DNA of 33,737 nt from positions 1 to 33,737 of the forward strand of contig JAFQGF010000044.1 in the NCBI GenBank assembly GCA_017415555.1, given 5' to 3'. Positions within the stretch are counted from its first letter, which is position 1. Each line of letters starts with the position of its first letter. Shown here piece by piece: positions 558 through 20,051 of this stretch. This DNA comes from Akkermansia sp. Its GTDB lineage: Bacteria > Verrucomicrobiota > Verrucomicrobiia > Verrucomicrobiales > Akkermansiaceae. The notes under the pieces are model-generated. The model did not search any database, was not told the DNA's origin, and was given only the letters and a program-made list of their open reading frames with translations. Position numbers and translations under genes: made by a program.

Positions 558-992
558 TCATTTCGCGCAATTGCGCGTTTTCTGTCTGGAACGCCCATTT
601 GCTTTAATGCCGGGCTTTTTTCTTCTTTTCTCTAAATCATCCATCGCCCATTTCTGCTGTAACTTTTTCAGCAATATCATAATGCCCGAATGGCAGATAA
701 AAGCAAAAAGCAGGGCAAGGTAACACAGGGGATGATAGGGGCGACCATATTTGTTTCTTATCGTGACATCTCCATCCTGCGGGAACAGGTTCAGAATGGG
801 ATAAATCACCATGACCAGCCCCGCCACCAGAAGGATATCCCAGAAGCCAAAATGGAATGTTTTGCTTTGACGGCTTGGTGTGAAGGAGGAGTCCTTACTG
901 ACGAGAAAAAGAACCGAAAGCAGAATTAACAACAGTCCGACCACGCTGAGAGTAATCAGACGGTCTGATATACTGACATTTGCGAGAATCAT
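558..992 (-). CDS. Small three-helix membrane protein, unknown function
   Basis: A 144-residue protein with three hydrophobic segments at about residues 12-31, 50-69 and 88-108, followed by a strongly basic tail (109-144, many Lys/Arg) that should stay in the cytoplasm by the positive-inside rule. No family is recognised. The start is supported by a promoter whose -10 box (TAACTT, 999-1004) ends exactly 6 nt before the ATG, the same spacing as at four other genes in the window, which implies a leaderless mRNA. It stands alone between the intron remnant and a divergent gene. The last codons overlap a 61-codon ORF in another frame that has no independent support. Coding status is likely, not certain. 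Confidence 0.6.
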   Translation of the reverse strand: MILANVSISDRLITLSVVGLLLILLSVLFLVSKDSSFTPSRQSKTFHFGFWDILLVAGLVMVIYPILNLFPQDGDVTIRNKYGRPYHPLCYLALLFAFICHSGIMILLKKLQQKWAMDDLEKRRKKPGIKANGRSRQKTRNCAK

Positions 993-998
993 GTGAGG

Positions 999-1027
999 AA
1001 GTTAGTTGCGAGAATTGAGGGTGAAAA
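999..1027 (-). promoter_or_regulatory. Promoter of the 558-992 membrane protein
   Basis: Reading the minus strand: -35 TTTTCA (1022-1027), 17-nt spacer, -10 TAACTT (999-1004), then 6 nt to the ATG. The -35 is only a 4/6 match. The position relative to the start agrees with the leaderless pattern of the window. Confidence 0.45.
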
Positions 1028-1381
1028 TGTAGAACTATTGCCGCCGCTGAGGATAGAGCAGCGTAGTTCCCGTAGAATCTGTCAGGCAGCAAATCCTCCC
1101 TACCGCCGCAAGGCACAGGGCTGTGGTGGCAAGGATTCTATGGATGATGCTCATGACTTGGTGTGTATCTGTTACGGGGCATTATATCAATTCCCGCCCC
1201 TCTGTACAAGCGTGGATGGCATTGTGTTGCGCGTTTCCTGCATTTTTGGTGCGGATGGCGCAAATAACAGAGCTTCGGCTTCGAGTTCGGGTTTGCGCCC
1301 TCCTTTCTGCGCCGAGACGGGCAAAAGCCAAGGATTCGCTCGAAGTGGAGCTCAATTTGCAGCTCAAAATTTCCTAAAATA
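1028..1381. other. Intergenic, no supported gene
   Basis: An 84-codon plus-strand ORF (GTG at 1123) and overlapping minus-strand ORFs exist, but none has a promoter or ribosome site in place and none resembles a known family. Nothing else is seen in this stretch. Confidence 0.4.
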
Positions 1382-1410
1382 TTTACATTCTCAATGAAAT
1401 ATGCTAGAAT
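1382..1410 (+). promoter_or_regulatory. Promoter of the 1451-2302 membrane protein
   Basis: -35 TTTACA (1382-1387), 17-nt spacer, -10 TAGAAT (1405-1410) preceded by an extended TGC. Predicted transcription start near 1417, giving a leader of about 34 nt, longer than at most neighbours. The leader contains ATG AAC GTG TAT GAG TAA from 1441, a five-codon ORF whose stop overlaps the beginning of the real gene. Confidence 0.7.
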
Positions 1411-1450
1411 TCCTGCGTAGCCAGCACACACCTGAAACGAATGAACGTGT

Positions 1451-2302
1451 ATGAGTAATTTTCGCCGCCTTTACTGCCTTGGATATATCCTGATGCTTCT
1501 GGGACTTGCTGCTCTTTACTTTCTGCCGGCCCCGGAAATGGAATACACACCGGAGGAACATTTGCGCAAATTGGATGCTTGGTTGGGGAGCAGTTATGGC
1601 CGCACCGAGCTCGATGCCGCACCATGGAAACAGGATGGCGATGATTTCCGCGGAGTGATTTTCACTTTCCGTGATTCAGCAGAGGAGCTGGACGAATTGA
1701 AGCGCCGTCATAATCTTAAAGAGGGTCGCGTCATCCCCGGTCTGCCGTCCGGCTGGCAGGAACAAATTGACACCACTCGCCCCATCTACACCGCCCCTCC
1801 GAGAGTGCTGATTAATTGGCATCTGTCAGATTGGGGCTATGACACTCGGGATTTCATTCTGGCAAGCCTGAAAGAGGGCCGTAGCCTACTGGCTCTGCGC
1901 TATAAGGAGACCCTACATCTCAAGGGGCGTACCACCTTTGCCGCTTGTTATGAAGTACCTGATTACGAGGGGAATTTACTGCCCTTCTGGTATATGGCAC
2001 TAGGCATCATCGGCCTCATAGCCTTCAGCCTGCTGGTACCGCTGGGGGGCCTGCTGCTGTTCCCGAATTTCAGATTGAAGCAAAAAGGCTCCGTGCTCAA
2101 GTGGTTTGGCATGGCTACCATCTTTCCGCTTGTCACCATCGTGCCCTTCTTCATACCCAACGTGGCGACAGACACCGATATTATCTCAACCCTTATTCTG
2201 CCGGTTCAGCTGGCAGGCGCCGCCGTCCTCTACGTGATTGTCGTAGTCATCCAAGGCCGCAGGAGCAAATCAGCACGCGCTACGGCATATATCAAACAGT
2301 AA
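1451..2302 (+). CDS. Membrane protein of unknown function with extracytoplasmic domain
   Basis: A 283-residue protein. A hydrophobic N-terminal segment (residues 7-25) is followed by a soluble domain of about 150 residues (27-176), likely outside the cytoplasmic membrane. Three membrane helices follow at about 178-204, 218-236 and 244-267, and a short basic tail ends the protein. No family motif is recognised. The topology, one N-terminal anchor plus a C-terminal helical bundle with a large loop, is common in Verrucomicrobiota and Planctomycetota hypothetical proteins (inference). It has its own promoter and a hairpin after the stop, so it looks monocistronic. The start follows the only in-frame ATG downstream of the promoter. 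Confidence 0.75.
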   Translation: MSNFRRLYCLGYILMLLGLAALYFLPAPEMEYTPEEHLRKLDAWLGSSYGRTELDAAPWKQDGDDFRGVIFTFRDSAEELDELKRRHNLKEGRVIPGLPSGWQEQIDTTRPIYTAPPRVLINWHLSDWGYDTRDFILASLKEGRSLLALRYKETLHLKGRTTFAACYEVPDYEGNLLPFWYMALGIIGLIAFSLLVPLGGLLLFPNFRLKQKGSVLKWFGMATIFPLVTIVPFFIPNVATDTDIISTLILPVQLAGAAVLYVIVVVIQGRRSKSARATAYIKQ

Positions 2303-2318
2303 ATGCCTGGACCATATG

Positions 2319-2338
2319 GGCGGGACGTTGTTCCCGCC
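2319..2338 (+). terminator. Hairpin after the 1451-2302 gene
   Basis: A 7-bp GC-rich stem, GGCGGGA (2319-2325) pairing with TCCCGCC (2332-2338), loop CGTTGT, 17 bases after the stop codon. It is followed by T-containing but not uniform sequence, so termination is plausible rather than certain. Confidence 0.5.
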
Positions 2339-2370
2339 TCTGAGAAAGCTGTATTTCATTTTCCATGACC

Positions 2371-2389
2371 TCTTACAAGCGATGTAAGA
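2371..2389 (-). terminator. Second hairpin in the convergent intergenic region
   Basis: TCTTACA (2371-2377) pairs with TGTAAGA (2383-2389) around a 5-nt loop. It lies downstream of the minus-strand alkaline phosphatase gene. There is no clear U-run, so its role is uncertain. Confidence 0.3.
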
Positions 2390-2423
2390 CTCTCCCAAAT
2401 TGAGGAGGTTGTTTCGCAAAAGG

Positions 2424-3503
2424 TTATTTATAAGGAAGAACCCTGTTTTCCAACATATAACAGGTCAAGGCTTCAGGCCTGCTGCGCGTCGGACTGTTAT
2501 CCTGTACCCCGGCAAAAAACGCAGCACCACAGCCTGCCGCATACACAGGAACCGCAACGCCACTGTGCAGGAAAGTACTGAAGTGCCCCTCAACCTTACC
2601 TTTAGCTTTATCCCCGCCCTGAATGCTTAATCCACCAGTCTGGTGATCTGCTGTTACTAACAGGAGTGTGTCGTTCCGCTTCTGCATCCACCGCAGCACC
2701 ACCCCTACAGCCTGGTCGAAATCCAGCGTTTCGTGCACAGTTTCATCCAAATCATTCACATGCGCAGACATATTGATTTTAGAGCCTTCCACCATCAGGA
2801 AGAAGCCGTCCTTATCCTGCTCCAGCAGCTTCAACGCCTGCTCCACGCGCTGCGGCAACCAATCACCGCGCTTACTGGCAGGGGCACAGTCCCCCGGGGC
2901 GGCTAATTCACACAAGCTGCACTCTTTTTTCAATTTTTCGCGTTGCTCTGGCGTAAAATTATCGGAGCCGCCACCGGCTACCACGTCAAAACCTGCCTCA
3001 GTCAGCGCAGCGGCAATGGCATCTGTGTTCTTACGGCTCTTCACATGTGCATAAAATGCCGCCGGAGTGGCATCTGTGACAGCCTTGGTTACCACCACCC
3101 CCGTTGCCTTACCAGCCTGTCGCATTTGCTCGGCCAGCGATTGTATCGGCTTTCCCTCAGCGTCCACTCCAACCTGCCCATTCAGTGTCTTATGTCCGCA
3201 GGCAATTGCGGTGCCGCCGGCTGCAGAATCGGTGATGGTATGGCTGGCCGAGGTGGTTATAGAAAAGCCCGTTACCGGCAGCGTTGTCAGATTCAGCTGC
3301 CCCTTGTTGCACAGCCAGGCCGCCCATACATGCTCCGCTCCCATCCCATCACCAATCATCAATATCACATTGCGAGCCCTCCCACTCGCTGGCTCTGGAG
3401 CTTCTGCTATCGTCTCGTGCGTGCATGTGTGGATGTAGGTCTGGGTGCCGCAGGACACCAGGCAACTCCCCATCAGACCCATTAAGAATACCAACTTTTT
3501 CAT
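2424..3503 (-). CDS. Alkaline phosphatase family lipoprotein
   Basis: A 359-residue protein of the PhoA-type alkaline phosphatase family, hydrolysing phosphate monoesters outside the cytoplasm. The N-terminus is a lipoprotein signal with lipobox LVSC (Cys18). Family motifs run in order: metal-binding D52 in MIGDGMG; the nucleophile Ser93 in TDSAAGGTA; the conserved TKAVTDATPAAF block at 139-150; E239 in MVEGSK; D286 and H287 in TADHQTGG; and H313 near the C-terminus. It is shorter than E. coli PhoA (about 450-470 residues) and has no crown insertion. Odd point: the residue aligned with the PhoA zinc ligand D327 is Asn244 (SKIN), whereas H248, matching H331, is kept. Single gene with its own promoter; the -10 box ends 6 nt before the ATG. 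Confidence 0.9.
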   Translation of the reverse strand: MKKLVFLMGLMGSCLVSCGTQTYIHTCTHETIAEAPEPASGRARNVILMIGDGMGAEHVWAAWLCNKGQLNLTTLPVTGFSITTSASHTITDSAAGGTAIACGHKTLNGQVGVDAEGKPIQSLAEQMRQAGKATGVVVTKAVTDATPAAFYAHVKSRKNTDAIAAALTEAGFDVVAGGGSDNFTPEQREKLKKECSLCELAAPGDCAPASKRGDWLPQRVEQALKLLEQDKDGFFLMVEGSKINMSAHVNDLDETVHETLDFDQAVGVVLRWMQKRNDTLLLVTADHQTGGLSIQGGDKAKGKVEGHFSTFLHSGVAVPVYAAGCGAAFFAGVQDNSPTRSRPEALTCYMLENRVLPYK

Positions 3504-3509
3504 GCTTGC

Positions 3510-3539
3510 AGTCTAGCATAATAACACATGCCCTGGCAA
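3510..3539 (-). promoter_or_regulatory. Promoter of the alkaline phosphatase gene
   Basis: On the minus strand: -35 TTGCCA (3534-3539), 18-nt spacer ending in TGC, -10 TAGACT (3510-3515). The -10 ends 6 nt before the ATG, so transcription should begin at or next to the start codon. No Pho-box-like direct repeat was noticed. Confidence 0.7.
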
Positions 3540-3580
3540 GGTAAAAAAAGCCGCTGTCAGGTTAAGATGCTTTGCCCGGA

Positions 3581-3912
3581 GGCTCGCGGGCGAGCCTAAT
3601 TCAAGAGCCTCGCCGCATGGCGAGGCGGCATATAATAGCCACGGTGTGGAGTGAGCAACGCGAACGAAACCCGTGGGTATAGCGCAAAAAACAAACCGAA
3701 CCCCACCGGATGGTGGGGTGGCATAAAGCGATGCAATACTCTGATTCATCGCTTTCTGTCACCCCGTTTCACGGGGCTCAAATTATTTTCCATCTTCTAG
3801 CAGGGGCGGGGCTCACTATCGTTCGCTTGCCCCTGCCTGAGTTCTTTCGCCCCCTGACGGGGGCTTCTGTTTTTGGCTCGCCTAGAGGCTCGCAACATTT
3901 CGCCAAATTTCC
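3581..3912. repeat. Hairpin-rich intergenic repeat, copy A
   Basis: A run of perfect small hairpins: GGCTCGC/GCGAGCC (3581-3596), CCTCGCC/GGCGAGG and CCCCACC/GGTGGGG. A 9-bp stem AAAGCGATG/CATCGCTTT, CCCCG/CGGGG and GCAGGGGC/GCCCCTGC follow. The part 3726-3870 matches 5226-5371 with only about ten differences, including one-base indels. The left part is not shared with the other copy. No ORF of interest lies inside. It fills the divergent side of the alkaline phosphatase promoter and the downstream side of the DUF1963-like gene. Confidence 0.8.
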
Positions 3913-3938
3913 GTTTATCGATAAAACGGAGTTTTTTT
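3910..3938 (+). terminator. Intrinsic terminator-like hairpin at the end of repeat copy A
   Basis: TCCGTTT pairs with AAACGGA around a short loop (3910-3930) and is followed by seven T residues (3932-3938) on the plus strand. No plus-strand gene lies just upstream, so it may insulate the following gene or end transcripts from the repeat. Confidence 0.5.
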
Positions 3939-3955
3939 GAGATTCCCTATTTTGT

Positions 3956-3977
3956 ATTCTGCGCGGAGAGGCAGAAT
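3956..3977 (-). terminator. Hairpin after the DUF1963-like gene
   Basis: ATTCTGC (3956-3962) pairs with GCAGAAT (3971-3977), 8-nt loop, starting 16 nt after the minus-strand stop codon. It lacks a U-run. Confidence 0.35.
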
Positions 3978-3993
3978 GTTTTGTGATTAGTCG

Positions 3994-4989
3994 TCAGTAG
4001 CAGTCAGATGTGACAAGCCAGTCATTTTTCTCTGCATTGTAGAAGAAATAGTAAATCCCGGCATCGCCAATATCCAGGTCCGCTGCACTGTCCCAGGTGA
4101 TTTGCAGAACAAAGGGATAGTCATCCGGTTCGCTGCCATCTTGAATGAAGGTAGGGTAGCCGCCAATTTTGTGAGTTTCGTAGGTGGCATGCAATGCGGG
4201 ATTCGTGAAGTGACCAGCAGGGAAGTCTTTCATGTCGCGTGTCTCGCAGGCGGTATCGCAGATGCGCTCCTCGTATTCGATGTGGTGCTTATCTTCCAGC
4301 TCAATAATCTTATCCCAAATTTCGTCACCGCCGCCGCTGCAGCGGCCGAAGGGCATATCATGTGCCACAGGTTCCGGGGTGAGGAGGCAGGTTTTCCATA
4401 TACCGGAGACATAATTGCAGGGCTCCAGCCCCTCCAGGGTAGGGTAGGTGCGGATGACGCAGCCCAGCTGCGGCATTTTTTCCGGATCTTCTGCCCAAGA
4501 TTCTTCGTGGGCAAAAATAGTGATGAGTGCTACCTGCCGGAGCGCCTCGGGCACGCCAGGCAAATTCGGCACAAACAGGGTGGCCAGCGGTTCCAGTCGC
4601 TTACCCGCGGCATCGACAGGCCATTCCTCACCGGGCTTCTGCCAGGTGACGCGGCCAAGGCAGCTGACATGTCCTGTCGGCAATTCGGCGGCCGGGGAGC
4701 TGCGCAGAATGACGGCAGGCTTCTGCAAGGTCCGGCGAATGGCGTCTATCTGGGGTTGCAACTCTATTGTTCCTGCAGCGGGCGCATCTGGTGCCGATGC
4801 TTTGCGCTTGTAGATATACCAGCACACAGAAACGGCCAGCACAATGCTCAGAAAATAGGCAAGTGCCAGCCCGATGTTGTCCCCCACTTTTTCTTTCAGC
4901 CCGAGTAGTCGGGAAAGGCCTTTCGAGATGAGAAATGACCATCCGAGGACAACGAAGATGTGGTAGAGAGCGGAGCTGAGCAGTTTCAT
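3994..4989 (-). CDS. Membrane-anchored DUF1963 (YwqG-like) protein
   Basis: A 331-residue protein with two membrane segments (about 5-22 and 38-60), a basic linker, and a large soluble domain (about 90-331). The C-terminal part has the DUF1963/YwqG look: HKIGGYPTFIQ (273-283), a VLQI strand and a glycine-aspartate turn before a YYFFY strand. Several cysteines (C177, C191, C201, C217, C244, C248) could pair if the domain is outside the cytoplasm. The function of the family is unknown. An upstream in-frame GTG at 5004 exists, but it lies beside the -10 box. The -10 (TATATT) ends exactly 6 nt before the ATG at 4989, so that ATG is chosen. The gene stands alone between the two repeat copies. Confidence 0.75.
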   Translation of the reverse strand: MKLLSSALYHIFVVLGWSFLISKGLSRLLGLKEKVGDNIGLALAYFLSIVLAVSVCWYIYKRKASAPDAPAAGTIELQPQIDAIRRTLQKPAVILRSSPAAELPTGHVSCLGRVTWQKPGEEWPVDAAGKRLEPLATLFVPNLPGVPEALRQVALITIFAHEESWAEDPEKMPQLGCVIRTYPTLEGLEPCNYVSGIWKTCLLTPEPVAHDMPFGRCSGGGDEIWDKIIELEDKHHIEYEERICDTACETRDMKDFPAGHFTNPALHATYETHKIGGYPTFIQDGSEPDDYPFVLQITWDSAADLDIGDAGIYYFFYNAEKNDWLVTSDCY

Positions 4990-4995
4990 GGCTTC

Positions 4996-5024
4996 AATAT
5001 ACACCTGCTATATGTTGTTTGCAA
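4996..5024 (-). promoter_or_regulatory. Promoter of the DUF1963-like gene
   Basis: On the minus strand: -35 TTGCAA (5019-5024), 17-nt spacer, -10 TATATT (4996-5001), 6 nt to the ATG. This predicts a leaderless mRNA and rules against the GTG at 5004 as start. Confidence 0.7.
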
Positions 5025-5076
5025 GCTGAAAAGCGCGTGGCCGAAGTAGATTTGAGTTCCGTGTGCCCCTCCCGAG

Positions 5077-5408
5077 AAATTGGAAGTTGGGCGGGCGAGC
5101 ATAGCGAGCGGAATGTAAGAGCCCGGAGGGCGAAAGAACTAAGGCAGGTGGTGGAGCGGCGGAGCCGCGGAACCCCTGCAATGCAGAAAAAAGATATCTG
5201 AGCCCAGGGAACCTGCGGCGAAAGAAAGCGTTGCAATACTTTGATTCATAGCTTTCTGTCACCCCGTTTCACGGGGCTCAAAATTATTTTCCATCTCTAG
5301 CAGGGGCGGCGCTCACTATCGTTCGCTTGCCCCTGCCTGAGTTCTTTCGCCCCCCTGGCGGGGGCTCCTGATTTCCGCTCGCTTCGCTCGCCCGCCAACT
5401 TTCAATTT
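5077..5408. repeat. Palindromic intergenic element with terminal inverted repeats, copy B
   Basis: The left end (5077-5113) and right end (5373-5408) are inverted copies of each other with only a few mismatches and one indel. The core is GGCGGGCGAGC plus AGCGAGCGGAA. A second inverted pair lies inside: the GGGCGAAAGAACT block near 5129 against AGTTCTTTCGCCC near 5340. The centre has AGAAAGC/GCTTTCT. Positions 5226-5371 match copy A (3726-3870) at roughly 93 percent. There is no coding capacity. It resembles a miniature inverted-repeat element or an extended REP-like structure. No clear target-site duplication was seen. Confidence 0.8.
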
Positions 5409-5488
5409 ACAGAGCTAATGGTGCCAATGCATATTCTGCCGGCAAATCAGAAACAGCCCCTCGTTCTCCGGCCTCGATGTGAATTGAC

Positions 5489-5517
5489 TTGTATTTTGCT
5501 ATGTACAATGGTATATT
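5489..5517 (+). promoter_or_regulatory. Promoter of the 52-codon membrane microprotein
   Basis: -35 TTGTAT (5489-5494), 17-nt spacer, -10 TATATT (5512-5517), then GAGGTT and the GTG start. The 6-nt offset matches other leaderless genes here. An overlapping alternative is TTGACT (5484-5489) with TACAAT (5504-5509), but its 14-nt spacer is too short. Confidence 0.6.
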
Positions 5518-5523
5518 GAGGTT

Positions 5524-5682
5524 GTGGTAACGTGTATACTCGTTGTGCTGTATGTGGGCATCATGCTGTTTCTGGGCGTTCATGAGGAATGGCTGGAGCG
5601 TGGGAACCCGTATTTCTGGCTGGGCTGGGGATTGGCTGCAGCAGGCGTGATAAGCGCGCTGGCTCTGATAGTGTTGCTCTAG
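5524..5682 (+). CDS. 52-residue two-helix membrane microprotein
   Basis: A small gene starting with GTG and ending in TAG. The product has a hydrophobic helix (residues 1-19, ending LYVGIMLFLGV) and a short polar hairpin (HEEWLERGNPY, 20-30). A second hydrophobic helix (31-52) begins FWLGWGLAAAG and runs to the C-terminus. It is too short for usual ORF cut-offs. Support comes from the coding-like hydrophobic pattern, a promoter with the same 6-nt offset to the start as neighbouring genes, and a strong hairpin terminator 45 bases after the stop. No family is recognised. It lies convergent to rplS. A longer reading from further upstream in the same frame would lack a good start. Confidence 0.55.
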   Translation: MVTCILVVLYVGIMLFLGVHEEWLERGNPYFWLGWGLAAAGVISALALIVLL

Positions 5683-5727
5683 AACCGGCTCGTTTTTTGT
5701 TTAACGGCGCAATGTCGGGGAATGCAG

Positions 5728-5758
5728 AAAGCTCAGTTCCCGGGGGAAACTGAGCTTT
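5728..5758. terminator. Bidirectional intrinsic terminator between the microprotein gene and rplS
   Basis: An 11-bp perfect stem, AAAGCTCAGTT (5728-5738) with AACTGAGCTTT (5748-5758), 9-nt loop. On the plus strand it runs into TTTTA, on the minus strand into TTTCTG. It serves two converging genes. Confidence 0.8.
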
Positions 5759-5799
5759 TACCTATGAAAACTAACCTGTAGAAAGAAGATTAGGCCGGA

Positions 5800-6144
5800 T
5801 TAGCGGATGGTCTTCACGGTGACAGCCTCCTTACCCACGCGGTCACGCAGGTAGTTGAGCTTAGCGCGACGCACTTTACCGCGGGTCACAACCTCAATCT
5901 TGGCAATCTTGGGAGTGTGGATGGGGAAGGAGCGCTCTACGCCCTCGCCGTAGGAAATCTTACGAACGGTGAAAGCCTCGTTCACGCCGGCACCACGCTT
6001 GCCGATCACAATGCCCTGGAAAATCTGCACGCGTTCCTTACCGCCTTCAATCACGCGGCAGTGAACCTTTACAGTGTCACCTACGTTGAAGGGAGTCACG
6101 TCGTCCTTCAGCTGCTCTTTTTCGATGGTATCGAGAATGTTCAT
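5800..6144 (-). CDS. rplS: 50S ribosomal protein L19
   Basis: A 114-residue protein with the full L19 sequence pattern: [20 protein letters not shown] (19-38), [12 protein letters not shown] (40-51), [18 protein letters not shown] (59-76), and the basic C-terminal [14 protein letters not shown] stretch. L19 sits at the interface of the two ribosomal subunits. It usually follows trmD in an rpsP-rimM-trmD-rplS cluster; here it is transcribed alone from its own promoter. It is the one gene in the window with a strong Shine-Dalgarno site: AAGGAG (6152-6157), 7 nt before the ATG. Confidence 0.97.
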
Positions 6145-6151
6145 CCTTGTT

Positions 6152-6157
6152 CTCCTT
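6152..6157 (-). promoter_or_regulatory. Strong Shine-Dalgarno site of rplS
   Basis: AAGGAG on the minus strand with 7 nt spacing to the ATG. It stands out because other genes in the window have no such motif. Confidence 0.85.
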
Positions 6158-6205
6158 GTGTGCTTATAAATGTTTCAGGAGCCTCTCGGCTCTGGCGGTT
6201 GCGAG

Positions 6206-6234
6206 AGTCTACACTATTTTTGTCTTCTTGGCAA
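6206..6234 (-). promoter_or_regulatory. Promoter of rplS
   Basis: On the minus strand: -35 TTGCCA (6229-6234), 17-nt spacer, -10 TAGACT (6206-6211). The predicted start near 6199 gives a leader of about 55 nt. That leader holds a small GAGCC/GGCTC hairpin (6180-6193) and the Shine-Dalgarno site, and could be a site of translational control. Confidence 0.7.
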
Positions 6235-6264
6235 TCCAAATTTGTGCAGATGGCGCATTTTTTT

Positions 6265-6687
6265 TTATTTTTCTTGATTGTTGGGCTTTTCGGGGGAGGA
6301 AATGAGGAGGTCTGCGAGGCGATTTCGCTCATCTTCCGTATATGGTGCGGGGGTGACGAGGTCGGCTGTGCGGCGGGCGCTGATGCTTTTGAGTACGGCG
6401 CATACTCCCTGAGGGCCGCTGATGGTGAATTGCCAGTGCAGTGTGCTGTTGCCGATATGCTGTAGTTCTGCTGCTACGGTATATTCGTCCCAGAAATGCA
6501 GGGGCGCCCGGTAATCTGCCTCAATATGGACGCGCGGGTAAGCGTAGTTATCCGGGCGGAATCCGCGGGCATTGAGGGCGTAGAGTTCGGCTTCTTCCAT
6601 GTAACGGAAGTAGTTGGCAAAGTGGACGATGCCGGCAGCATCTGTGGCGTGCATGGGCACGCGGCCTTTGTGTATGAAGGAAGGCAT
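6265..6687 (-). CDS. Acyl-CoA thioesterase, YbgC/4HBT hotdog family
   Basis: A 140-residue single hotdog-domain protein. The N-terminal motif MHATDAAGIVHFANYFRYME (12-31) matches the 4-hydroxybenzoyl-CoA thioesterase/YbgC signature, with D16 as likely catalytic acid and H22 and Y26 conserved. The long helix is followed by the ADYRAPLHFWDEY strand (57-69). YbgC-type enzymes hydrolyse acyl-CoA thioesters in the cytoplasm and in many bacteria associate with the Tol-Pal system; no tol genes are nearby here. It begins 44 nt after the stop of the preceding minus-strand membrane protein gene and has no clear promoter of its own, so the two are probably one operon. The exact substrate is unknown. Confidence 0.85.
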   Translation of the reverse strand: MPSFIHKGRVPMHATDAAGIVHFANYFRYMEEAELYALNARGFRPDNYAYPRVHIEADYRAPLHFWDEYTVAAELQHIGNSTLHWQFTISGPQGVCAVLKSISARRTADLVTPAPYTEDERNRLADLLISSPEKPNNQEK

Positions 6688-6731
6688 TGTGAGTTACGAA
6701 TTACGAGTTACGGAGCTCTGTGGCGGAGGGG

Positions 6732-7853
6732 TTAATAGTAATAGCCGCGGGAGGATGCTGTGCCGAAGCGGCGGCGTATGTCGTCTGCCTTGGCGTTCCA
6801 GCCGGCATCCTGCACTTCTGCAATGTTGATGGTGTCGCCGGTTTCATTGGTGCGGATGTAGAGCACGGCCATTCGGCGGCCATCCGTGACGGTGAGGAAG
6901 CGGGTGCGGCTGTCGAAGATGTCGTCTACAGAAGCCACGGAGACGTCGCTTTCATCTCTCAGTTCGTTGCGGTAGGCCGTTGGCACAGACTGGAGGCGGA
7001 GCCATTGTTCTGCCTGGGCTTTGCTTTTGCCGGCCAGGGCTTCTGTGTCGGAAATATGCTTCATAACACGGTAGGCGGCATGCACGGCGGGGAAGGTGGC
7101 GCGGCGCGTGCCGTCCGGGGCCTTGCTGTATTGGTACATGGTGCGAAGGTCTCGTTGCAATGCTTCCTGCTCGGAGGGTTGGGGGTAGCACCAGAACCAG
7201 AGGGTGATGAGGATGATGAGGGTGGCCCAGCCGGCGTTCTGCCAGTTGCTCAGGCGCTGCAGGCGGCGCAGGATGGCGCGGAATCCGCTCAGGCGTTCGT
7301 GGTCGGCATCTCCGAAGAGGAAGTTGGGTTTTGCTTTCTGTGGGTTTGCCAGAATTTCCTGTACGGTGAGTGCTTTTGAAGGGTCGAGGACCGAGGCGTC
7401 CACGTTGTTGATGTCGCATTCATCGTCCGGCTCCGGCGGGTAAAGAAAACGCAGCACAACCAGGCGGGAGAACATAGTGAGCCCCAGCACGCAGACCATG
7501 TAGAGCATGCCCTGTGCGAGTTTGCCGTCCTCGTATTCAAAGGTTGGGTGTACGAGTTCAGGGCAGGTGGCAGTGAGCACAGGCCAGGCGATGATGGCTG
7601 TTCCCATGATAATCAGCAGTGAGCTGAACCACACCAGATTGCGCCGTGGGCCGGCCACGCTCACCAGCTCCATGAAGAGGAAGGGTGCCAGCCACATCAC
7701 CGGCTTAAAGTCATAGTAGGTGATACCCTGTACATAGTCCAGTGCAGGGTTGGCAGGCATGATGCTGTCCGGATACGAAAAGACATAGAGCAGGGCTGCC
7801 GCACCAGCCGTACACAGTATCAGACGCAGCGCGATGGAGACGAACCTGAGCAT
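6732..7853 (-). CDS. Multi-span membrane protein of unknown function
   Basis: A 373-residue protein with hydrophobic segments at about residues 5-26, 51-67, 73-93, 112-134 and 205-222. An acidic cytoplasmic-looking loop lies at 138-200, and a soluble C-terminal domain (about 225-373) ends in RRFGTASSRGYYY. No family is recognised. It is first in a likely two-gene operon with the YbgC-like thioesterase. Start choice is firm: TTGACA and TAGAAT with an 18-nt spacer sit just upstream and the -10 ends 6 nt before the ATG. Confidence 0.75.
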   Translation of the reverse strand: MLRFVSIALRLILCTAGAAALLYVFSYPDSIMPANPALDYVQGITYYDFKPVMWLAPFLFMELVSVAGPRRNLVWFSSLLIIMGTAIIAWPVLTATCPELVHPTFEYEDGKLAQGMLYMVCVLGLTMFSRLVVLRFLYPPEPDDECDINNVDASVLDPSKALTVQEILANPQKAKPNFLFGDADHERLSGFRAILRRLQRLSNWQNAGWATLIILITLWFWCYPQPSEQEALQRDLRTMYQYSKAPDGTRRATFPAVHAAYRVMKHISDTEALAGKSKAQAEQWLRLQSVPTAYRNELRDESDVSVASVDDIFDSRTRFLTVTDGRRMAVLYIRTNETGDTINIAEVQDAGWNAKADDIRRRFGTASSRGYYY

Positions 7854-7859
7854 GCCTTT

Positions 7860-7889
7860 ATTCTACGGCACGCCACCGCGCACTGTCAA
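7860..7889 (-). promoter_or_regulatory. Consensus promoter of the 6732-7853 gene
   Basis: On the minus strand: perfect -35 TTGACA (7884-7889), 18-nt spacer, -10 TAGAAT (7860-7865), then AAAGGC and ATG. The clearest leaderless promoter in the window. Confidence 0.85.
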
Positions 7890-7928
7890 GCGTGCGTTTC
7901 GTCACAAATGTGTTACAGATTTTCCTTG

Positions 7929-9005
7929 TTACTCATTCTCCCGCCCGTCGCCAAGCAGAAGGTGCAGGTGGCGCAGCTCTCCTGCACCGTGGGTGGTGGC
8001 AATGTGCAGCAGGCGCTCCTCTACGTCCGGGGGTGGGGGCATGCAGGCAGCAGGCAAATCTGCGGTGAGCAGCTCCAGGGCGCAGGCATTGTGCAGAGCC
8101 ATGGTAGTCTCAATGAAGCACATGCGGGTGGGCTCTTCCAGGATGAAGTTGAGCGGTTTCTTGTTGTTGAGTACGCGGTGGGGCGGAATCTTGGTGCCGA
8201 ACTCATCATCGATGCCCATGTTGGCCAGCAAAACGGGGGAAGCGATGAGGGCCGGGGCATCCAGCCTGTTGTGCAGAGCATTGATGCGACCTGTGGCGGT
8301 TACAACACACCAGGCATGCAGTACGGTGTCGTTGAGGTCTTCGCGGTCGTTCACGTTAACGAATCCCACGTCTCCCGGCAGTTCGCCGACTTTGTCCTCT
8401 ACATCTGCCACCATGACGTGCATGCCATGTTTGCGGGCATAGTGCACAATGCCGCGTCCTACCTTGCCATAGCCCACGACCAGCAGGCGTCGGCCTTCCA
8501 GGTCATTGTATTCCAGTTTTTTCAGAGCCCGGAAGAAGCTTTCGCCGGTGCCGAGCGTTGTTTCCACGCGCTTGATGCGGCCGGCATCTGCCACAATAAC
8601 GGGGCGGCGTGCTCGTTCGTACACGGGGACACCGGAGCGCGTGAGCTCTGCATAACCCAGAGTGGGGGTATAGCGGACGCACTGGGCGGCGCAATCCAGT
8701 ACGATGTCAAAGTTATCCTGCCCGTTCTCTGCTGTATGGATACCGAACTCCGGCAGGAGTGCCACGATAGCGGGGTCGCAGGGCATGCTGGTTTTGCGGG
8801 GTACATACACAGTAGCTCCGGCAGCCAGCAGAGCCATGAACTTGCCGAGCGTATTGCGGAAGATGGGGCTGGCATCCAGCACGCGCAATCCTTCCAGCGG
8901 TGTGGTAGCGGCCCACTCATCCGCCTGGCGAAGCAGGGTGGGCCATTCCTCGGGTGGGTAGAATCCCTGCAGATACTCTTTGATGCGTTGTGCGTTTGCG
9001 TTCAT
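7929..9005 (-). CDS. Adenosylhomocysteinase-like NAD-binding protein
   Basis: A 358-residue protein resembling S-adenosylhomocysteine hydrolase. A Rossmann motif GYGKVGRG (178-185) lies in LLVVGYGKVGRGIVHYARK; VVTATGR (234-240) and LANMGIDDEFG (260-270) match the family's VTATG and NIGHFDNEID blocks, and E148 (VETTLGTGE) aligns with the family's EETT. Unusual: true hydrolases have about 430-490 residues and carry the NVNDSVTKSKFDN active-site segment with catalytic Lys and Asp. Here the stretch between E148 and the Rossmann fold is too short and that segment is missing. It may be a divergent or non-catalytic paralogue. The start at 9005 is taken because the promoter lies inside a longer upstream reading frame. 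Confidence 0.7.
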   Translation of the reverse strand: MNANAQRIKEYLQGFYPPEEWPTLLRQADEWAATTPLEGLRVLDASPIFRNTLGKFMALLAAGATVYVPRKTSMPCDPAIVALLPEFGIHTAENGQDNFDIVLDCAAQCVRYTPTLGYAELTRSGVPVYERARRPVIVADAGRIKRVETTLGTGESFFRALKKLEYNDLEGRRLLVVGYGKVGRGIVHYARKHGMHVMVADVEDKVGELPGDVGFVNVNDREDLNDTVLHAWCVVTATGRINALHNRLDAPALIASPVLLANMGIDDEFGTKIPPHRVLNNKKPLNFILEEPTRMCFIETTMALHNACALELLTADLPAACMPPPPDVEERLLHIATTHGAGELRHLHLLLGDGRENE

Positions 9006-9016
9006 TCCTGTGCCAG

Positions 9017-9045
9017 ATTCTAAGCCCCGAGTCCGGAAAATGCAA
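9017..9045 (-). promoter_or_regulatory. Promoter of the adenosylhomocysteinase-like gene
   Basis: On the minus strand: -35 TTGCAT (9040-9045), 17-nt spacer, -10 TAGAAT (9017-9022), 11 nt to the ATG, so a leader of only about 4 nt. Confidence 0.75.
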
Positions 9046-9106
9046 GCATATAGTGTAGAAATGTCCACTAAATGGGGGAAAAGCGGGGGCGAGCGGCAGA
9101 TTCTTG

Positions 9107-9134
9107 TTGCATGCGGGCGCGTGCTGTGTTAAAT
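9107..9134 (+). promoter_or_regulatory. Promoter of the HIT gene
   Basis: -35 TTGCAT (9107-9112), 16-nt spacer, -10 TTAAAT (9129-9134), 11 nt to the ATG at 9146. It supports 9146 rather than the in-frame codon at 9104 as the start. Confidence 0.55.
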
Positions 9135-9145
9135 ATGTGGGTGCA

Positions 9146-9490
9146 ATGGAAAAAACACTCTTCCAGAAAATAGCGGATAAGGAGATACCCTCGGCCATGG
9201 TGTATGAGGACGAGCTCTGTGTGGCTTTCAGGGATATTACTCCCGTGGCTCCTGTGCATGTGTTGCTGGTGCCGCGCAAGCCTATTCCCAGCGTAGCAGC
9301 TGCTACGGTGGAGGATGCCGCCCTGCTGGGGCACCTCATGCTCAAAGTTGGTGAGATTGCCCGGGCTGAAGGACTGACCGAGGGCGGGTTCCGCACCGTG
9401 CTCAACACCGGAGCCGATGCCGGGCAGACCGTGCCGCACCTGCATATTCACATCATCGGTGGGCGTTCTCTTCAGTGGCCTCCCGGTTAG
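9146..9490 (+). CDS. HIT-family nucleotide hydrolase (HINT type)
   Basis: A 114-residue histidine-triad protein. The active-site motif VPHLHIHIIGGR (96-107) carries H98, H100 and H102, the last two in the catalytic triad region. The preceding strands (MVYEDELCVAFRDITPVAPVHVLLVPRK) are typical of HINT/PKCI proteins, and N87 is conserved. Such cytoplasmic enzymes split purine nucleoside phosphoramidates and adenylates, including aminoacyl-AMP. Length is normal for the family. It is followed 56 nt later by the GH31 gene on the same strand; a functional link is not evident. Confidence 0.93.
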   Translation: MEKTLFQKIADKEIPSAMVYEDELCVAFRDITPVAPVHVLLVPRKPIPSVAAATVEDAALLGHLMLKVGEIARAEGLTEGGFRTVLNTGADAGQTVPHLHIHIIGGRSLQWPPG

Positions 9491-9546
9491 TCTGCAAATG
9501 CTCAGATTGCGGGTTGCCAGTTGCTTGTTGATTACAATGTAGCTGC

Positions 9547-11907: not shown

Positions 11908-11910
11908 CCC

Positions 11911-13053
11911 ATGGCAATCAAACGCGATACACTGGATAAGATACTCAGCCGCCTAGAGCACCTGAGCACGGAGGAACTGCGGCAGTTGTTTATGCGTCTT
12001 GCCTCCGAGAAAGGCTTGCTGCAGGAGGTGTTCGATGCCCTGCGCGATGGCCTTATTCTCTTCGATGCAGCGGGCTGTGCCTGTTTTGCTAACAAAGCGG
12101 CCTGCGCCATTTACAACAGACCGCTCAATGAGTTGCTGCGTGTGTCTTTCGAACGCCTTGTGGGCGGCACCTGTACCTGGCAGGAGGTGTGCAGCAGTGG
12201 TATTGCCATCACCCGCGACCTGCATGTGAACTACCCCGCAGAGCGGCACTACAATTTCCTGATAAGTCCCGTGGCAGAAGGCTCCGAGTATCTGCTGCTC
12301 ATCCGGGATGATACAGAAAGCCTGGCCAGGGGCGAGGAAGATGCGGAGGCCGAGCAGTTTAACCTCGTTACCTACATGGCCGGAGCCGTTGCTCACGAAA
12401 TTGGTAATCCGCTGAATTCCCTGGGGCTGAATCTGCAGCTCATGCAACGCAAGCTGGCCAAATTGGGGAAAGAGGCTCAGGATAAACTGACGCCGTTGCT
12501 GGAGAGTGCCCTGGGGGAAACTCGTCGGTTGGATACACTGCTGCGGCAGTTTCTTCAATCGGTGCGTCCCGGGCACATGAAGCGCGAGGTCGTGCGCCTT
12601 AATGATGTGGTGGAGCATGTGCTGGAGGTGCTGGAGCCGGAGATGGCTCCCCGGGGTATCAGCATCCAGCTGGCGCTGAGCCGGGACCTGCCTGAGCTGG
12701 AGGCCGATGGCGGCCAGCTCTTCCAGGCTATGTATAACCTTATCCGGAATGCCTACCAATCTATCCCCGGCAATGAGGGAGGAGTGTATATTCAGACGGA
12801 TTATAATGATACGGATGTACGCATCATCATAGGTGACAATGGTTCCGGTATTTCTCACGAGGTGATGGGTAACATGTACGAACCCTTCCGCACCACTCGT
12901 AAAAAGGGCAATGGCCTCGGCCTGCTGATTGTGCGCCACATTATCAAGGAACATGGCGGCACGCTTTCTCTGGCCTCCAAAGAGGGAATAGGCACCAAGG
13001 TGACGATTACGATACCTCGCGCAGACCGCGTGGTGCGCCTGCTTCCATCGTAA
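11911..13053 (+). CDS. Soluble PAS-type sensor histidine kinase (orphan)
   Basis: A 380-residue kinase with no membrane segment. A helical N-terminus (1-40) is followed by a PAS-like sensor (about 41-135, starting VFDALRDGLILFDAAG). The dimerisation domain carries H162 in AVAHEIGNPLNSL and the ATPase domain has the N-box FQAMYNLIRNAYQS (271-284), the G1 box IGDNGSGIS (307-315) and the G2 box GNGLGLLIV (333-341). The AHEIGNPL form is typical of NtrB/AtoS-like kinases that partner sigma-54 activators. No response regulator gene is adjacent. It starts 4 nt after the GH31 stop, suggesting joint expression. It should sense a cytoplasmic signal through the PAS domain (inference). Confidence 0.9.
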   Translation: MAIKRDTLDKILSRLEHLSTEELRQLFMRLASEKGLLQEVFDALRDGLILFDAAGCACFANKAACAIYNRPLNELLRVSFERLVGGTCTWQEVCSSGIAITRDLHVNYPAERHYNFLISPVAEGSEYLLLIRDDTESLARGEEDAEAEQFNLVTYMAGAVAHEIGNPLNSLGLNLQLMQRKLAKLGKEAQDKLTPLLESALGETRRLDTLLRQFLQSVRPGHMKREVVRLNDVVEHVLEVLEPEMAPRGISIQLALSRDLPELEADGGQLFQAMYNLIRNAYQSIPGNEGGVYIQTDYNDTDVRIIIGDNGSGISHEVMGNMYEPFRTTRKKGNGLGLLIVRHIIKEHGGTLSLASKEGIGTKVTITIPRADRVVRLLPS

Positions 13054-13071
13054 GGCATTGTTTTAAAGAAG

Positions 13072-13099
13072 TTGATTTTTTCTGATTTTCTGTTATATT
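13072..13099 (+). promoter_or_regulatory. Promoter of the YeiH-like exporter gene
   Basis: -35 TTGATT (13072-13077), 16-nt spacer ending in TGT, -10 TATATT (13094-13099). Predicted leader about 6 nt before the ATG at 13113. Confidence 0.65.
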
Positions 13100-13112
13100 A
13101 CTCAGGCGATAT

Positions 13113-14177
13113 ATGAGTGATAAAACAAAAGCTGCTTTTTGGTCCGGTGTTTTACTGATTGTGTTGTTTGCCTGTACGGCCTCACTGATTGCCGGGTTTG
13201 AGTGGGTGCAGGCAGCTCGCTTAAGTCCGCTGATTGTGGGTATTATTCTGGGGATGGTGTATGCCAATACGCTGCGAAGTCAGGTTCCGTCCGGCTGGGC
13301 TCCCGGTATTAACTTCTGTACCAAGCAGGTTTTGCGAACGGGTATTGTGCTGTATGGCTTTCAGATTACTCTGAATGATGTAATGGCTGTGGGTTTGCCG
13401 GCCATTATTGTAGATGTTATTGTGGTTTGTTTTACCCTGTTGCTGGGGATTGGGCTGGGCAAGTTGCTGAACATGGATTCACAGACCGCCCTGCTGACAT
13501 CAGTCGGGAGTTCTATTTGCGGTGCTGCTGCTGTGCTGGGGGCGGAGTCTGTGGTAAAGGGCGAGGCCTACAAAACGGCCGTGGCCGTGTCTACTGTGGT
13601 GATATTCGGTACGCTTTCCATGTTCCTGTACCCCATTTTGTACCGTCTGGGAGTATTTGATATGGATGTGCAGCAAATGGGCATTTATACGGGGGCAACT
13701 CTGCATGAAGTGGCTCATGTGTACGGTGCCGGCGAAGCGATGGATGGCATGCTGGGCGCCGATGCCGGGGCTGTGGCCGACGCGATTAAGCGCCCCGCAG
13801 TCATTGTGAAAATGATGCGCGTTATTCTTCTGGCGCCTGTGCTTATTGTTCTGGCCGGTGTGCTTTCGCAGCGCAGGCATGGGGCAGAAGCTGTCCGCAG
13901 TCGTATTACGATACCATTATTTCCGTTTCTCTTTCTGGCCGTTATCGGGTTGAATTCTCTGGAGCTGTTGCCGCTGTGGGCGGTGGATTTTATACGTTCG
14001 CTCTCTACCTTTATGCTGACGATGGCGATGACGGCTCTGGGGGTTGAAACGGGTATTGAGAAATTCCGCAAAGCCGGGGTAAAACCGTTTTTGTTAGCCC
14101 TATTCCTGTTTATCTGGTTGATATTTGGTGGCTATTGGCTGGTGAAGGGGATAAGTGCCATTTGTTCTCCGGGTTGA
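13113..14177 (+). CDS. YeiH/UPF0324 family putative sulfate exporter
   Basis: A 354-residue polytopic membrane protein with about ten hydrophobic segments. Family marks include LSPLIVGIILGMVYAN (38-53), LRTGIVLYGFQITLNDV (73-89), SVGSSICGAAAVLG with AES (131-147) and GATLHEVAHVYGAG. It matches the YeiH (UPF0324, putative sulfate exporter) family in length and order. The transported substrate is not proven for the family; sulfate/sulfite export is the usual proposal. It has its own near-leaderless promoter. The neighbours downstream encode a small anchored protein and an SsuABC-type importer, which fits a sulfur theme (inference). Confidence 0.88.
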   Translation: MSDKTKAAFWSGVLLIVLFACTASLIAGFEWVQAARLSPLIVGIILGMVYANTLRSQVPSGWAPGINFCTKQVLRTGIVLYGFQITLNDVMAVGLPAIIVDVIVVCFTLLLGIGLGKLLNMDSQTALLTSVGSSICGAAAVLGAESVVKGEAYKTAVAVSTVVIFGTLSMFLYPILYRLGVFDMDVQQMGIYTGATLHEVAHVYGAGEAMDGMLGADAGAVADAIKRPAVIVKMMRVILLAPVLIVLAGVLSQRRHGAEAVRSRITIPLFPFLFLAVIGLNSLELLPLWAVDFIRSLSTFMLTMAMTALGVETGIEKFRKAGVKPFLLALFLFIWLIFGGYWLVKGISAICSPG

Positions 14178-14341
14178 TAAGATGGTGATAAATGCTCCCA
14201 TAAAAGGTCATTCTGTGCCTTATTCACCATAGAATGGCGTTTACGAGAGTTAAGCTTGCTTTTCTGCTGTTTTTTTGTTACCATCTTTCTCGTCGGATAT
14301 TGGCTTGTTAATGATGTAATGTATTTATAGACAAATGTGTT
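14178..14341 (+). other. Intergenic region with nested inverted repeats
   Basis: AAGATGGT (14179-14186) can pair with ACCATCTT (14280-14287), and inside it CATTCT (14209-14214) with AGAATG (14231-14236). A T7 run follows at about 14270. It could be a terminator for the exporter gene or a structured leader. A weak promoter for the next gene may lie at TTGTTA (14305-14310) and TATAGA (14326-14331). Confidence 0.35.
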
Positions 14342-14767
14342 ATGTTTAATGCGCGTGTCATTGTCGGAGTCCTGTTGTTTGTCGGCCTGCTGTGTATGGT
14401 GTTTATCCCGGATTGGTTTGAAGACCCCGTCAAGCTTGCTCCGGGAGAGTGGAAAGGTACCCCAAACGGGATGCTGGGCGAGGTGGATGAAAGCCAGGTG
14501 CGATGGAGTGTTGGCGGGCACCGGGGGCGTTTTGTTTACAACTGGGTACAGACGGAGAATGAACCCTACCGGGTGCAGTTCCGGCGCGGCAACCGCGTAT
14601 TCGAGGCCGAGGTGGAGTTTAATGGACGCGACGAAGCTGTGGTGCATCCTCTCATTTTTGACGAACTTCCGGAGCTGGCTCAGGACTACATCCGCAGCCG
14701 CAATAAAGCCATGAATCGCCCGGAAAATGAGATGATTTTTGTTTTTCACCGTATAAAAAGGAAATAA
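14342..14767 (+). CDS. Membrane-anchored small protein, unknown function
   Basis: A 141-residue protein with one N-terminal hydrophobic segment (6-22, signal anchor or uncleaved signal) and a soluble domain rich in beta-strand-like sequence (VRWSVGGHRGRFVYNW, EAEVEFNGRDEAVVH). The tail is basic. No family is recognised. It lies between the YeiH-like exporter and the ABC importer on the same strand, but the importer has its own promoter, so membership in that operon is not shown. Confidence 0.65.
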   Translation: MFNARVIVGVLLFVGLLCMVFIPDWFEDPVKLAPGEWKGTPNGMLGEVDESQVRWSVGGHRGRFVYNWVQTENEPYRVQFRRGNRVFEAEVEFNGRDEAVVHPLIFDELPELAQDYIRSRNKAMNRPENEMIFVFHRIKRK

Positions 14768-14791
14768 GGTGCAGTGTGGCGGCATTGTAGC

Positions 14792-14820
14792 TTGACGTAG
14801 GGTGGGAGGTTTGCTAGGAT
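14792..14820 (+). promoter_or_regulatory. Promoter of the ABC importer operon
   Basis: -35 TTGACG (14792-14797), 17-nt spacer ending in TGC, -10 TAGGAT (14815-14820), 8 nt to the ATG at 14829. Transcription is predicted to begin one or two bases before the start codon. Confidence 0.8.
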
Positions 14821-14828
14821 AGTGGGCT

Positions 14829-15815
14829 ATGAAGAGAAGCCTCTCATGCCTGATAATGGTAGCGGCCATGCTGCTGATTCTTTGCGGGTGCAACCGCGAA
14901 GAGGAGGGGAGTACCGTTATTCGCATGGGTGGCTTTCCTAATGTAACCCATGTGCAGGCTCTGGTGGCCCGCAATATGACGCGCAATGGTAATGGCTGGT
15001 TCGAGCGCTACTTGCCCGGGTACACTGTGGAGTGGTACACCTACAATGCCGGTCCCACCGCCATGGAAGCGATTTTCGGCCGCACTGTTGATTTAACCTA
15101 TGTAGGCCCCAGCCCGGCGCTGAATGCGTACGCTGTATCCGCCGGGCGAGAGGTGCGCCTGCTGGCCGGTGCGGTGAATGGCGGAGCTGCTCTCATGGTG
15201 GCTCCAGGGAGCGGAATCGAGAAACCGGCGGATTTCAAAGGGCGCAGCATTGCTACGCCGCAGCTGGGGAATACGCAGGATGTATCCTGCCGCGCCTGGC
15301 TGGGGAGAAATGGATTGCGCTGTACGCTGGAGGGGGCAGGGGATTGCCGTGTGAGCCCCACGCCCAATGCTATGCAATTGCAGCTTATGAAGCAGGGGGA
15401 TATCTCTGCATGCTGGACCGTGGAGCCTTGGGTATCCCGCCTGGAGAAAATGGCCGGAGCCCGTGTGCTCGTGCAGGAACCGGATGTGGTGACCACTGTG
15501 CTTGCCGGTCGCGTAGGCTGGTTGCGCCGCCACCCCAAGGAGGCTGCGGCTATTCTGCAAGCTCATAAGGATTTGACCCGCTGGATACAGGAGCACCCTG
15601 AGGAGGCTCAGGCTCATGTGGTGGCCGAGCTCACGGAGCTGACGCAGGCCCCCTTTGACCCTGAGTTAGTGCGAGCAGCATGGCAGCGCCTGAAGCTTAC
15701 CACAGAGGTGGACATCTCCGGCTTGCGGCAGTTTGTGGAGGATGCACAGAGCTGTGGCCTGCTGGACCATGTGCCCGATCCGAATGGAATGCTCTATACC
15801 CCCGCAGAGGAATAA
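14829..15815 (+). CDS. ABC transporter substrate-binding lipoprotein (SsuA/TauA/NMT1-like)
   Basis: A 328-residue periplasmic binding protein of the aliphatic sulfonate/nitrate/taurine family. The N-terminal lipoprotein signal ends in lipobox LCGC (Cys21), so the protein is membrane-tethered. Typical blocks: IRMGGFPNVTHVQALVA (31-47), GRTVDLTYVGPSPALNAYA near 84-102, PADFKGRSIATPQLGNTQD, and MKQGDISACWTVEPWVSRL. The VGPSP stretch is the position of the VG.GP substrate-binding loop. Eight bases separate its stop from the ATPase start. The ligand is not determinable; sulfonates, taurine, nitrate, or pyrimidine thiamin precursors are the candidates in this family. Confidence 0.9.
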   Translation: MKRSLSCLIMVAAMLLILCGCNREEEGSTVIRMGGFPNVTHVQALVARNMTRNGNGWFERYLPGYTVEWYTYNAGPTAMEAIFGRTVDLTYVGPSPALNAYAVSAGREVRLLAGAVNGGAALMVAPGSGIEKPADFKGRSIATPQLGNTQDVSCRAWLGRNGLRCTLEGAGDCRVSPTPNAMQLQLMKQGDISACWTVEPWVSRLEKMAGARVLVQEPDVVTTVLAGRVGWLRRHPKEAAAILQAHKDLTRWIQEHPEEAQAHVVAELTELTQAPFDPELVRAAWQRLKLTTEVDISGLRQFVEDAQSCGLLDHVPDPNGMLYTPAEE

Positions 15816-20038: not shown

Positions 20039-20051
20039 GAGTGAGTCGGAA

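Follow-up and report, generated by a model that had tools for sequence, protein, structure and literature searches.

Promoters close to start codons and probable leaderless initiation in an Akkermansia genome

Introduction

Teaching usually assigns leaderless initiation to Actinobacteria, Deinococcus and archaea; Actinobacteria and Deinococcus-Thermus keep many Shine-Dalgarno genes. In the main text of their survey, Zheng et al. (2011, PMC3160421) describe a TA-like signal located roughly 10 bp before the start, which takes the form TAnnnT in GC-rich groups; Verrucomicrobia are not named in that main text. For Akkermansia muciniphila, a Cappable-seq report on mouse cecum places 10% of 886 high-confidence transcription starts at annotated gene starts, and it gives a -35 element, a TATAAT-type box and a pyrimidine-purine (YR) initiator for all species analysed (PMC4782308, BMC Genomics 2016). 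Here we analyse contig JAFQGF010000044.1 of the Akkermansia sp. assembly GCA_017415555.1, a stretch of 33,737 nt that we call the window, several genes of which carry a -35/-10 promoter that ends only a few bases before the start codon, together with the genome of which the window is one contig.

On the translation side, Akkermansia is placed among Shine-Dalgarno-scarce bacteria with an intact CCUCC in the available part of a further study (PLoS One 2024, PMC10783764), which does not tie the genus to promoter position or leaderless mRNA. A word search of a review of leaderless translation (PMC9031893) finds neither Akkermansia nor Verrucomicrobia named in the text it covers. Judged by titles and the beginnings of abstracts, no other studies of leaderless starts in Akkermansia or Verrucomicrobia were found beyond PMC4782308, PMC3160421 and PMC10783764.

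Results

We surveyed the genome (2.02 Mb in 65 contigs, 79% complete) with a gene-calling script of our own that uses codon statistics only and is blind to upstream sequence. Run on 945,079 bases, made up of the window and 60 stretches of the same genome, it returned 649 genes, 645 of them with 150 nt of upstream sequence. For these we recorded the offset, that is, the number of nucleotides from the end of a -10 box (TANNNT) to the start codon, and considered a box paired when a TTG -35 element lay upstream of it across a spacer of 16-19 nt. The background per offset was taken at 40-110 nt upstream. TANNNT ends 6 nt before the start in 37 genes, 9 nt in 32 and 8 nt in 22, against a background of 7.6 per offset. 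The corresponding counts for paired boxes are 23, 21 and 9 over a background of 0.99 (binomial p = 8e-24 for the 23 pairs at offset 6), with 17 as the commonest spacer. Pairs at 5-13 nt are present in 80 genes; equally wide intervals at 14-22, 40-48 and 60-68 nt have them in 17, 13 and 15 genes, and when the last 60 nt are dinucleotide-shuffled 100 times the mean is 7.1 and the maximum 18. The original prediction, made for the window alone, had held that promoter pairs recur at a constant 6-nt offset beyond chance, and that a genome-wide plot of distances should reveal it. In the plot, 6 nt does stand out sharply and the recurrence far exceeds chance; the offset, however, is a preferred rather than a constant one, since the distribution is bimodal, with peaks at 6 (partly 7) and 9 nt.

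A promoter model trained on 124 sites from other genomes of the genus was then applied to this genome. For window genes and orthologue pairs, a score of at least 8 was counted as a promoter; the 90% point of shuffled sequence is 8.04. Among 398 genes that are first in their transcription unit (lead genes), the model finds 167 sites, of which 84 lie at most 13 nt from the start codon, 22 at 14-27 nt and 61 at 28-110 nt; under a stricter cut the near sites are 62 of 118. The 247 operon-internal genes yield four sites, only one of them near the start. Lead genes thus place a housekeeping-type promoter (TTGaca, about 17 nt, TAnnnT) at a preferred distance from the start codon, which genes within operons almost never do. 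A sigma region 2 model has three matches in the genome, and a sigma region 1.2 model has none in the 79% that is assembled. Because 84 of the 167 detectable lead-gene promoters end no more than 13 nt before the start, we think it very probable that the messages of these genes start on the A of the AUG or at most about seven bases from it, and that they are translated leaderless.

Could these distances arise without any promoter being there? We rejected chance and AT-richness on the basis of the shuffles and two further controls. Among 4899 internal ATGs, TANNNT occurs 32 times at 6 nt and 30 times at 9 nt, against a background of 32.7; a codon-frame ripple is visible at offsets 4, 7 and 10. 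Escherichia coli K-12 (250 kb, 215 genes), put through the identical caller and model, has one of 18 sites near the start and no distance peak at 6 or 9 nt. Nor does a bias from in-frame stop codons give a full account, since paired TAYNNT boxes, which contain no stop, still peak at 6 and 9 nt (16 at 6, one at 7, four at 8, 13 at 9 and one at 10, background 0.96). A biological dip at 7 nt was also considered and is partly a caller artefact: when every in-frame ATG is allowed, from the beginning of the open reading frame (ORF) to 120 nt past the called start, the counts become 56 at 6, 36 at 7, 16 at 8 and 43 at 9. A hidden GTG or TTG start one codon upstream of the 9-nt genes was rejected as well, because NTG at -3 is absent from all 32 listed sequences.

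We compared the bases around the start codon in a pooled genus set of 1275 genes from this genome, 15 pooled relatives, the one-contig genome G052 (2.65 Mb) and genome G004, with G015 left out. The 6-nt class has C at -1 in 36 of 44 genes (82%) versus 465 of 1126 (41%) genes without a near promoter (p = 9e-8), and a YR initiator with +1 on the start codon in 41 of 44. In the 9-nt class, C at -1 stands at background level (15/39), and it is position -4 that is C in 22 of 39 genes versus 328 of 1126 (p = 6e-4) and position -3 that is a purine in 32 of 39 versus 700 of 1126 (p = 0.011). Because the C shifts from -1 to -4, the 6-nt class would be leaderless and the 9-nt class would carry a leader of 3 nt. 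By this logic transcription is predicted to begin on the A of the AUG in the 6-7-nt class (leader 0) and on the purine at -3 in the 9-nt class, giving messages that open with R-N-Y-AUG (R, purine; Y, pyrimidine). The 10-13-nt classes imply leaders of about 4-7 nt.

The R-N-Y-ATG context is also seen more widely in the pooled sample, where genes without a near promoter have a purine at -3 in 62% and a pyrimidine at -1 in 72% of cases. Since operon-internal genes show the same (61% and 72%), the context is not a promoter effect alone.

We compared Shine-Dalgarno 5-mers at 4-12 nt before the start with a control window of sequence. E. coli K-12 has such motifs in 61 of 215 genes versus four in the control. 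In this genome no excess was found in any class: near-promoter genes (4/85 versus 4/85), far-promoter genes (5/76 versus 3), operon-internal genes (7/246 versus 11) and lead genes without a near promoter (10/314 versus 9). The lead genes of G052 likewise show no excess (7/179 versus 15). A 14-base 16S-end pattern with CCTCC occurs in 11 of 30 genomes searched, including G004, G015 and G017 of the same genus, which carry GGATCACCTCCTTT; the pattern has no match in this genome or in 15 other same-genus genomes, in which the 16S gene is perhaps unassembled. A bS21 gene is present in 30 of 30 genomes. One gene in the window stands apart: rplS (5800-6144, minus strand) has an AAGGAG-type motif before its start, kept in eight of eight named relatives found, and a promoter 61 nt upstream, and is an exception in a genome where Shine-Dalgarno motifs stand at chance level.

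Conservation was assessed in 118 of 180 orthologue pairs, those with equal alignment starts, which represent 37 genes of this genome and lean towards loci of window genes. A near-promoter orthologue exists for seven of 11 near-promoter genes versus two of 26 other genes (p = 9e-4). In five orthologue pairs of the same geometry the -35 and -10 elements are 97% identical, as opposed to 60% for the spacer and 63% for the region upstream. To judge from these alignments, short-range boxes are kept in orthologues while spacers diverge.

Turning to the window, where a promoter was counted as near when within 16 nt of the start, eight of the 30 listed genes have one, and in all eight the near site is the best-scoring within 80 nt. 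We name genes by the position of their start codon. Gene 3503 (2424-3503, minus strand), of the alkaline phosphatase family (Pfam PF00245), has its -10 box TAGACT at 3510-3515, 6 nt before the ATG, and its -35 element TTGCCA at 3534-3539 (spacer 18); five of the seven same-genus loci whose alignment reaches residues 1-4 have a box at 6-9 nt, most others being unplaceable. On the same strand, the DUF1963 gene 4989 (3994-4989; Pfam) is preceded by TATATT at 4996-5001, again 6 nt before the ATG, and TTGCAA at 5019-5024 (spacer 17), with boxes at 7, 8 and 9 nt in three relatives (L124-L126) and two more unaligned at the start (L127, L128). Gene 5524 (5524-5682, plus strand) encodes a 52-aa hydrophobic protein matched in seven of 59 genus genomes, this one included, and begins with GTG; TATATT at 5512-5517 ends 6 nt before it and TTGTAT lies at 5489-5494 (spacer 17). 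The aligned start is ATG or GTG in all eight loci from six other genomes, and three of the eight (L211, L212, L213) have the box at exactly 6 nt, one of the three also with GTG.

Gene 7853 (6732-7853, minus strand, no Pfam family) has TAGAAT at 7860-7865, 6 nt before the ATG, and TTGACA at 7884-7889 (spacer 18). Offset 6 recurs in four of four close named relatives (L061-L064); a further named locus (L066) lacks a box. Among 16 distinct, more distant same-genus loci, a set from which two duplicate and two unaligned loci were left out and in which the start of L086-L089 is not aligned to that of gene 7853, 12 have a box at 6-10 nt, two at 13-14 nt and two none. The SAH-hydrolase-like NAD-binding gene 9005 (7929-9005, minus strand) carries TAGAAT at 9017-9022, 11 nt before the ATG, and TTGCAT at 9040-9045 (spacer 17). 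Eleven of 12 named relatives have a box at 7-11 nt; all 12 named loci, found by a search that reaches close relatives only, belong to metagenome-assembled genomes of Akkermansia sp. (8) or Akkermansiaceae (4), at no more than 85% identity.

The HIT-family gene 9146 (9146-9490, plus strand) has the -10-like TTAAAT at 9129-9134, 11 nt before the ATG, and TTGCAT at 9107-9112; tgttaaat, with its TTAAAT core, is kept in seven of seven named relatives found. On the same strand, the PF03601 gene 13113 (13113-14177) has TATATT at 13094-13099, 13 nt before the ATG, and TTGATT at 13072-13077 (spacer 16), and of only two relatives one has TANNNT at 11 nt and the other none near. Gene 14829 (14829-15815, plus strand), for an NMT1-like substrate-binding protein, has TAGGAT at 14815-14820, 8 nt before the ATG, and TTGACG at 14792-14797 (spacer 17); the box stands at 8 nt in three of three named relatives found.

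The ninth candidate, ORF 558-992 on the minus strand, was skipped by the gene caller. Its doubtful -10-like TAACTT (999-1004) lies 6 nt before the ATG at 992, and also 6 nt away in the one relative found among 58 other same-genus genomes; no good -35 accompanies it. The original prediction had placed a -10 box precisely 6 nt upstream of the start codons at 992, 3503, 4989, 5524 and 7853, where all five indeed have one, and a -35 element 17-18 nt further up, which is so for the last four and not for 992, whose best candidate is TTTCAC (spacer 16, pair score 3.9). It had further put boxes at 8 nt before 14829, 11 nt before 9005 and 13 nt before 13113, which is where they are. For 9146 the proposed 11 nt agrees with the position of TTAAAT, but TAAATA at 10 nt is the model's choice (score 8.7), and the box is weaker than the others.

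Elsewhere in the window, the promoter model finds no near promoter in the 15 listed genes from 15823 onward. A run of minus-strand genes occupies 18929-33153, and four of the five of its proteins given to Pfam are complex I subunits; the long open frames opposite this run are probably codon-bias shadows. At gathering scores, no Rfam family matches the window. Positions 3720-3880 and 5225-5381 hold two copies, 92% alike, of an intergenic repeat about 160 bp long; more full or partial copies occur in 13 of the other 60 stretches sampled. As several of these sit at contig ends, the repeat probably breaks the assembly.

Discussion

The heavy use of leaderless initiation that had been proposed from the window is supported, as a prediction for the genome, by the distance peaks, the initiator base, the lack of a Shine-Dalgarno excess and the conservation of boxes in orthologues, with 992 as its weak member. 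A polymerase bound to a -35/-10 pair near the start would begin transcription on the A of the AUG (6-7 nt) or on the purine at -3 (9 nt), and such messages are predicted to be translated without Shine-Dalgarno contact. On leaderless mRNA a ribosome or 30S subunit that already carries initiator tRNA binds the AUG at the 5' end, and work on such mRNA suggests that the 5'-terminal AUG of the messages considered here may be taken in the same manner. Because leadered and operon-internal genes are also at chance for the motif, the leaderless genes may form one branch of an initiation system that is generally Shine-Dalgarno-independent, even though three genomes of the genus still have the anti-Shine-Dalgarno core at the 16S end.

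A number of observations weigh against this reading or narrow it. Near sites number 85 over all 645 genes, about 13%, and a promoter is detectable in only 167 of 398 lead genes, so that "half" holds for these alone. The training set of the model was itself 40% near-start (49 of 124 sites), and the sensitivity of the model is low in E. coli (18 sites in 150 lead genes), which weakens that control. Any gene set built from ORFs is biased towards offsets 6 and 9 where an in-frame TAA or TAG falls within the box, and our script under-calls the 7-nt class because a box that ends in AT, with G next to it, creates a false in-frame ATG. Among the 43 orthologue pairs with both promoters near, the offset is identical in 15 and off by 1-4 nt in 28, and the orthologue set is weighted to loci fetched around window genes. 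Because its pair score lies below the 90% point of shuffled sequence, the promoter of 992 is not convincing. Shine-Dalgarno motifs exceed the control in the far-promoter genes of the pooled relatives (5/28 versus 0), the operon-internal genes of G004 (6/35 versus 1) and the lead genes of G015 (12/101 versus 4). Finally, G004 shows the 6-nt peak only (six genes, with one at 9 nt) and G015 neither peak (none at 6 nt, one at 9 nt).

The peaks themselves allow for a further reading that is compatible with leaderless initiation and towards which we lean slightly: that they reflect the YR start rule acting on the R-N-Y-ATG context, with no separate 3-nt class. In genes without near promoters the YR frequencies for leaders of 0, 1, 2 and 3 nt are 0.71, 0.12, 0.17 and 0.35, ranking leaders 0 and 3 first, as observed. 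What this leaves over is that leader 3 was seen 37 times versus 19 expected after background, about twofold, and that leaders 4-7 reach about half of expectation or less; the deviation over the first four lengths is modest (chi-square p = 0.018), and a separate class of 3-nt leaders is possible. A more ambitious proposal would have the clade run a Shine-Dalgarno-free system in which the promoter doubles as ribosome signal and leaders measure zero codons or one (R-N-Y), the latter being a new, separately selected ribosome-entry class, and this we hold to be rather unlikely.

We give a small chance to the possibility that start-hugging promoters are real but that transcription begins a few bases upstream, or that these promoters are secondary, so that leaders are short or ordinary. 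The starts placed here are predictions from sequence, the 9- and 10-13-nt classes do imply leaders of about 3-7 nt, and 61 of the 167 detectable sites lie at least 28 nt upstream. However, the 82% share of C at -1 in the 6-nt class agrees with transcription from the A of the ATG, the near site is the best one in each of the eight window genes, and in A. muciniphila starts were measured at annotated start codons (PMC4782308). That chance or annotation is responsible, with AT-rich hexamers standing before start codons and any ORF caller setting in-frame TAA/TAG upstream of starts, can draw on the raised in-frame offsets of TAR boxes and the caller artefact at 7 nt, and is nonetheless highly improbable given the -35 elements paired with the boxes at about 17 nt, the stop-free peaks (16 and 13 versus 0.96), the shuffles, the absence of a peak at 6 or 9 nt at internal ATGs, the E. 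coli control and the orthologue conservation, although an artefact may be at work in single genes such as 992.

Returning to probable leaderless initiation, how widely is it shared? Near promoters are found in 84 of 398 lead genes here (21%) and in 32 of 150 in the 15 pooled same-genus genomes, compared with 15 of 194 in G052 (8%; p = 2e-5 for this genome versus G052), seven of 91 in G004 (8%) and three of 104 in G015 (3%). Stretches of the 15 pooled genomes have nine genes at 6 nt and 13 at 9 nt over a background of 0.39, and G052 has weaker peaks (six at 6 nt, four at 9 nt, background 0.30). From these unequal shares and the peaks in this genome, the pooled relatives, G052, G004 and G015, the mode of initiation appears to vary within the genus. 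Seven other families, sampled very thinly by 52 genes of eight genomes, yield one near promoter and one Shine-Dalgarno gene.

With the anti-Shine-Dalgarno core present in three genomes of the genus, and with Shine-Dalgarno motifs at chance and promoters set against the start codon in the genome studied here, Akkermansia would offer good ground for studying how ribosomes choose starts free of a leader. For such Akkermansia, a -10 box near the start is what gene callers and expression tools should score, rather than a ribosome-binding site.

In its placing of TAnnnT before the start, this genome resembles the TA-led genes of Actinobacteria and Deinococcus-Thermus, where the main text of Zheng et al. 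puts the signal about 10 bp upstream (PMC3160421). It differs from both groups in that its Shine-Dalgarno motif is at chance. The bacteria discussed in PMC10783764 are similar in another respect, G004, G015 and G017 carrying GGATCACCTCCTTT and the genome studied here having few Shine-Dalgarno genes. The leaderless set of A. muciniphila belongs to the same genus; its starts were measured as RNA (PMC4782308), and those given here are predicted from sequence. Compared by sequence within the genus, near-start promoters mark 84 of 398 lead genes here versus 15 of 194 in G052. The view that leaderless use is no textbook trait of this kind of organism thus stands for its degree, which is heavier here, and not for its occurrence, which PMC4782308 already records in A. 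muciniphila. Leaderless starts in the genus being known, what our analysis likely adds is their heavier use in a clade and a likely class of 3-nt leaders.

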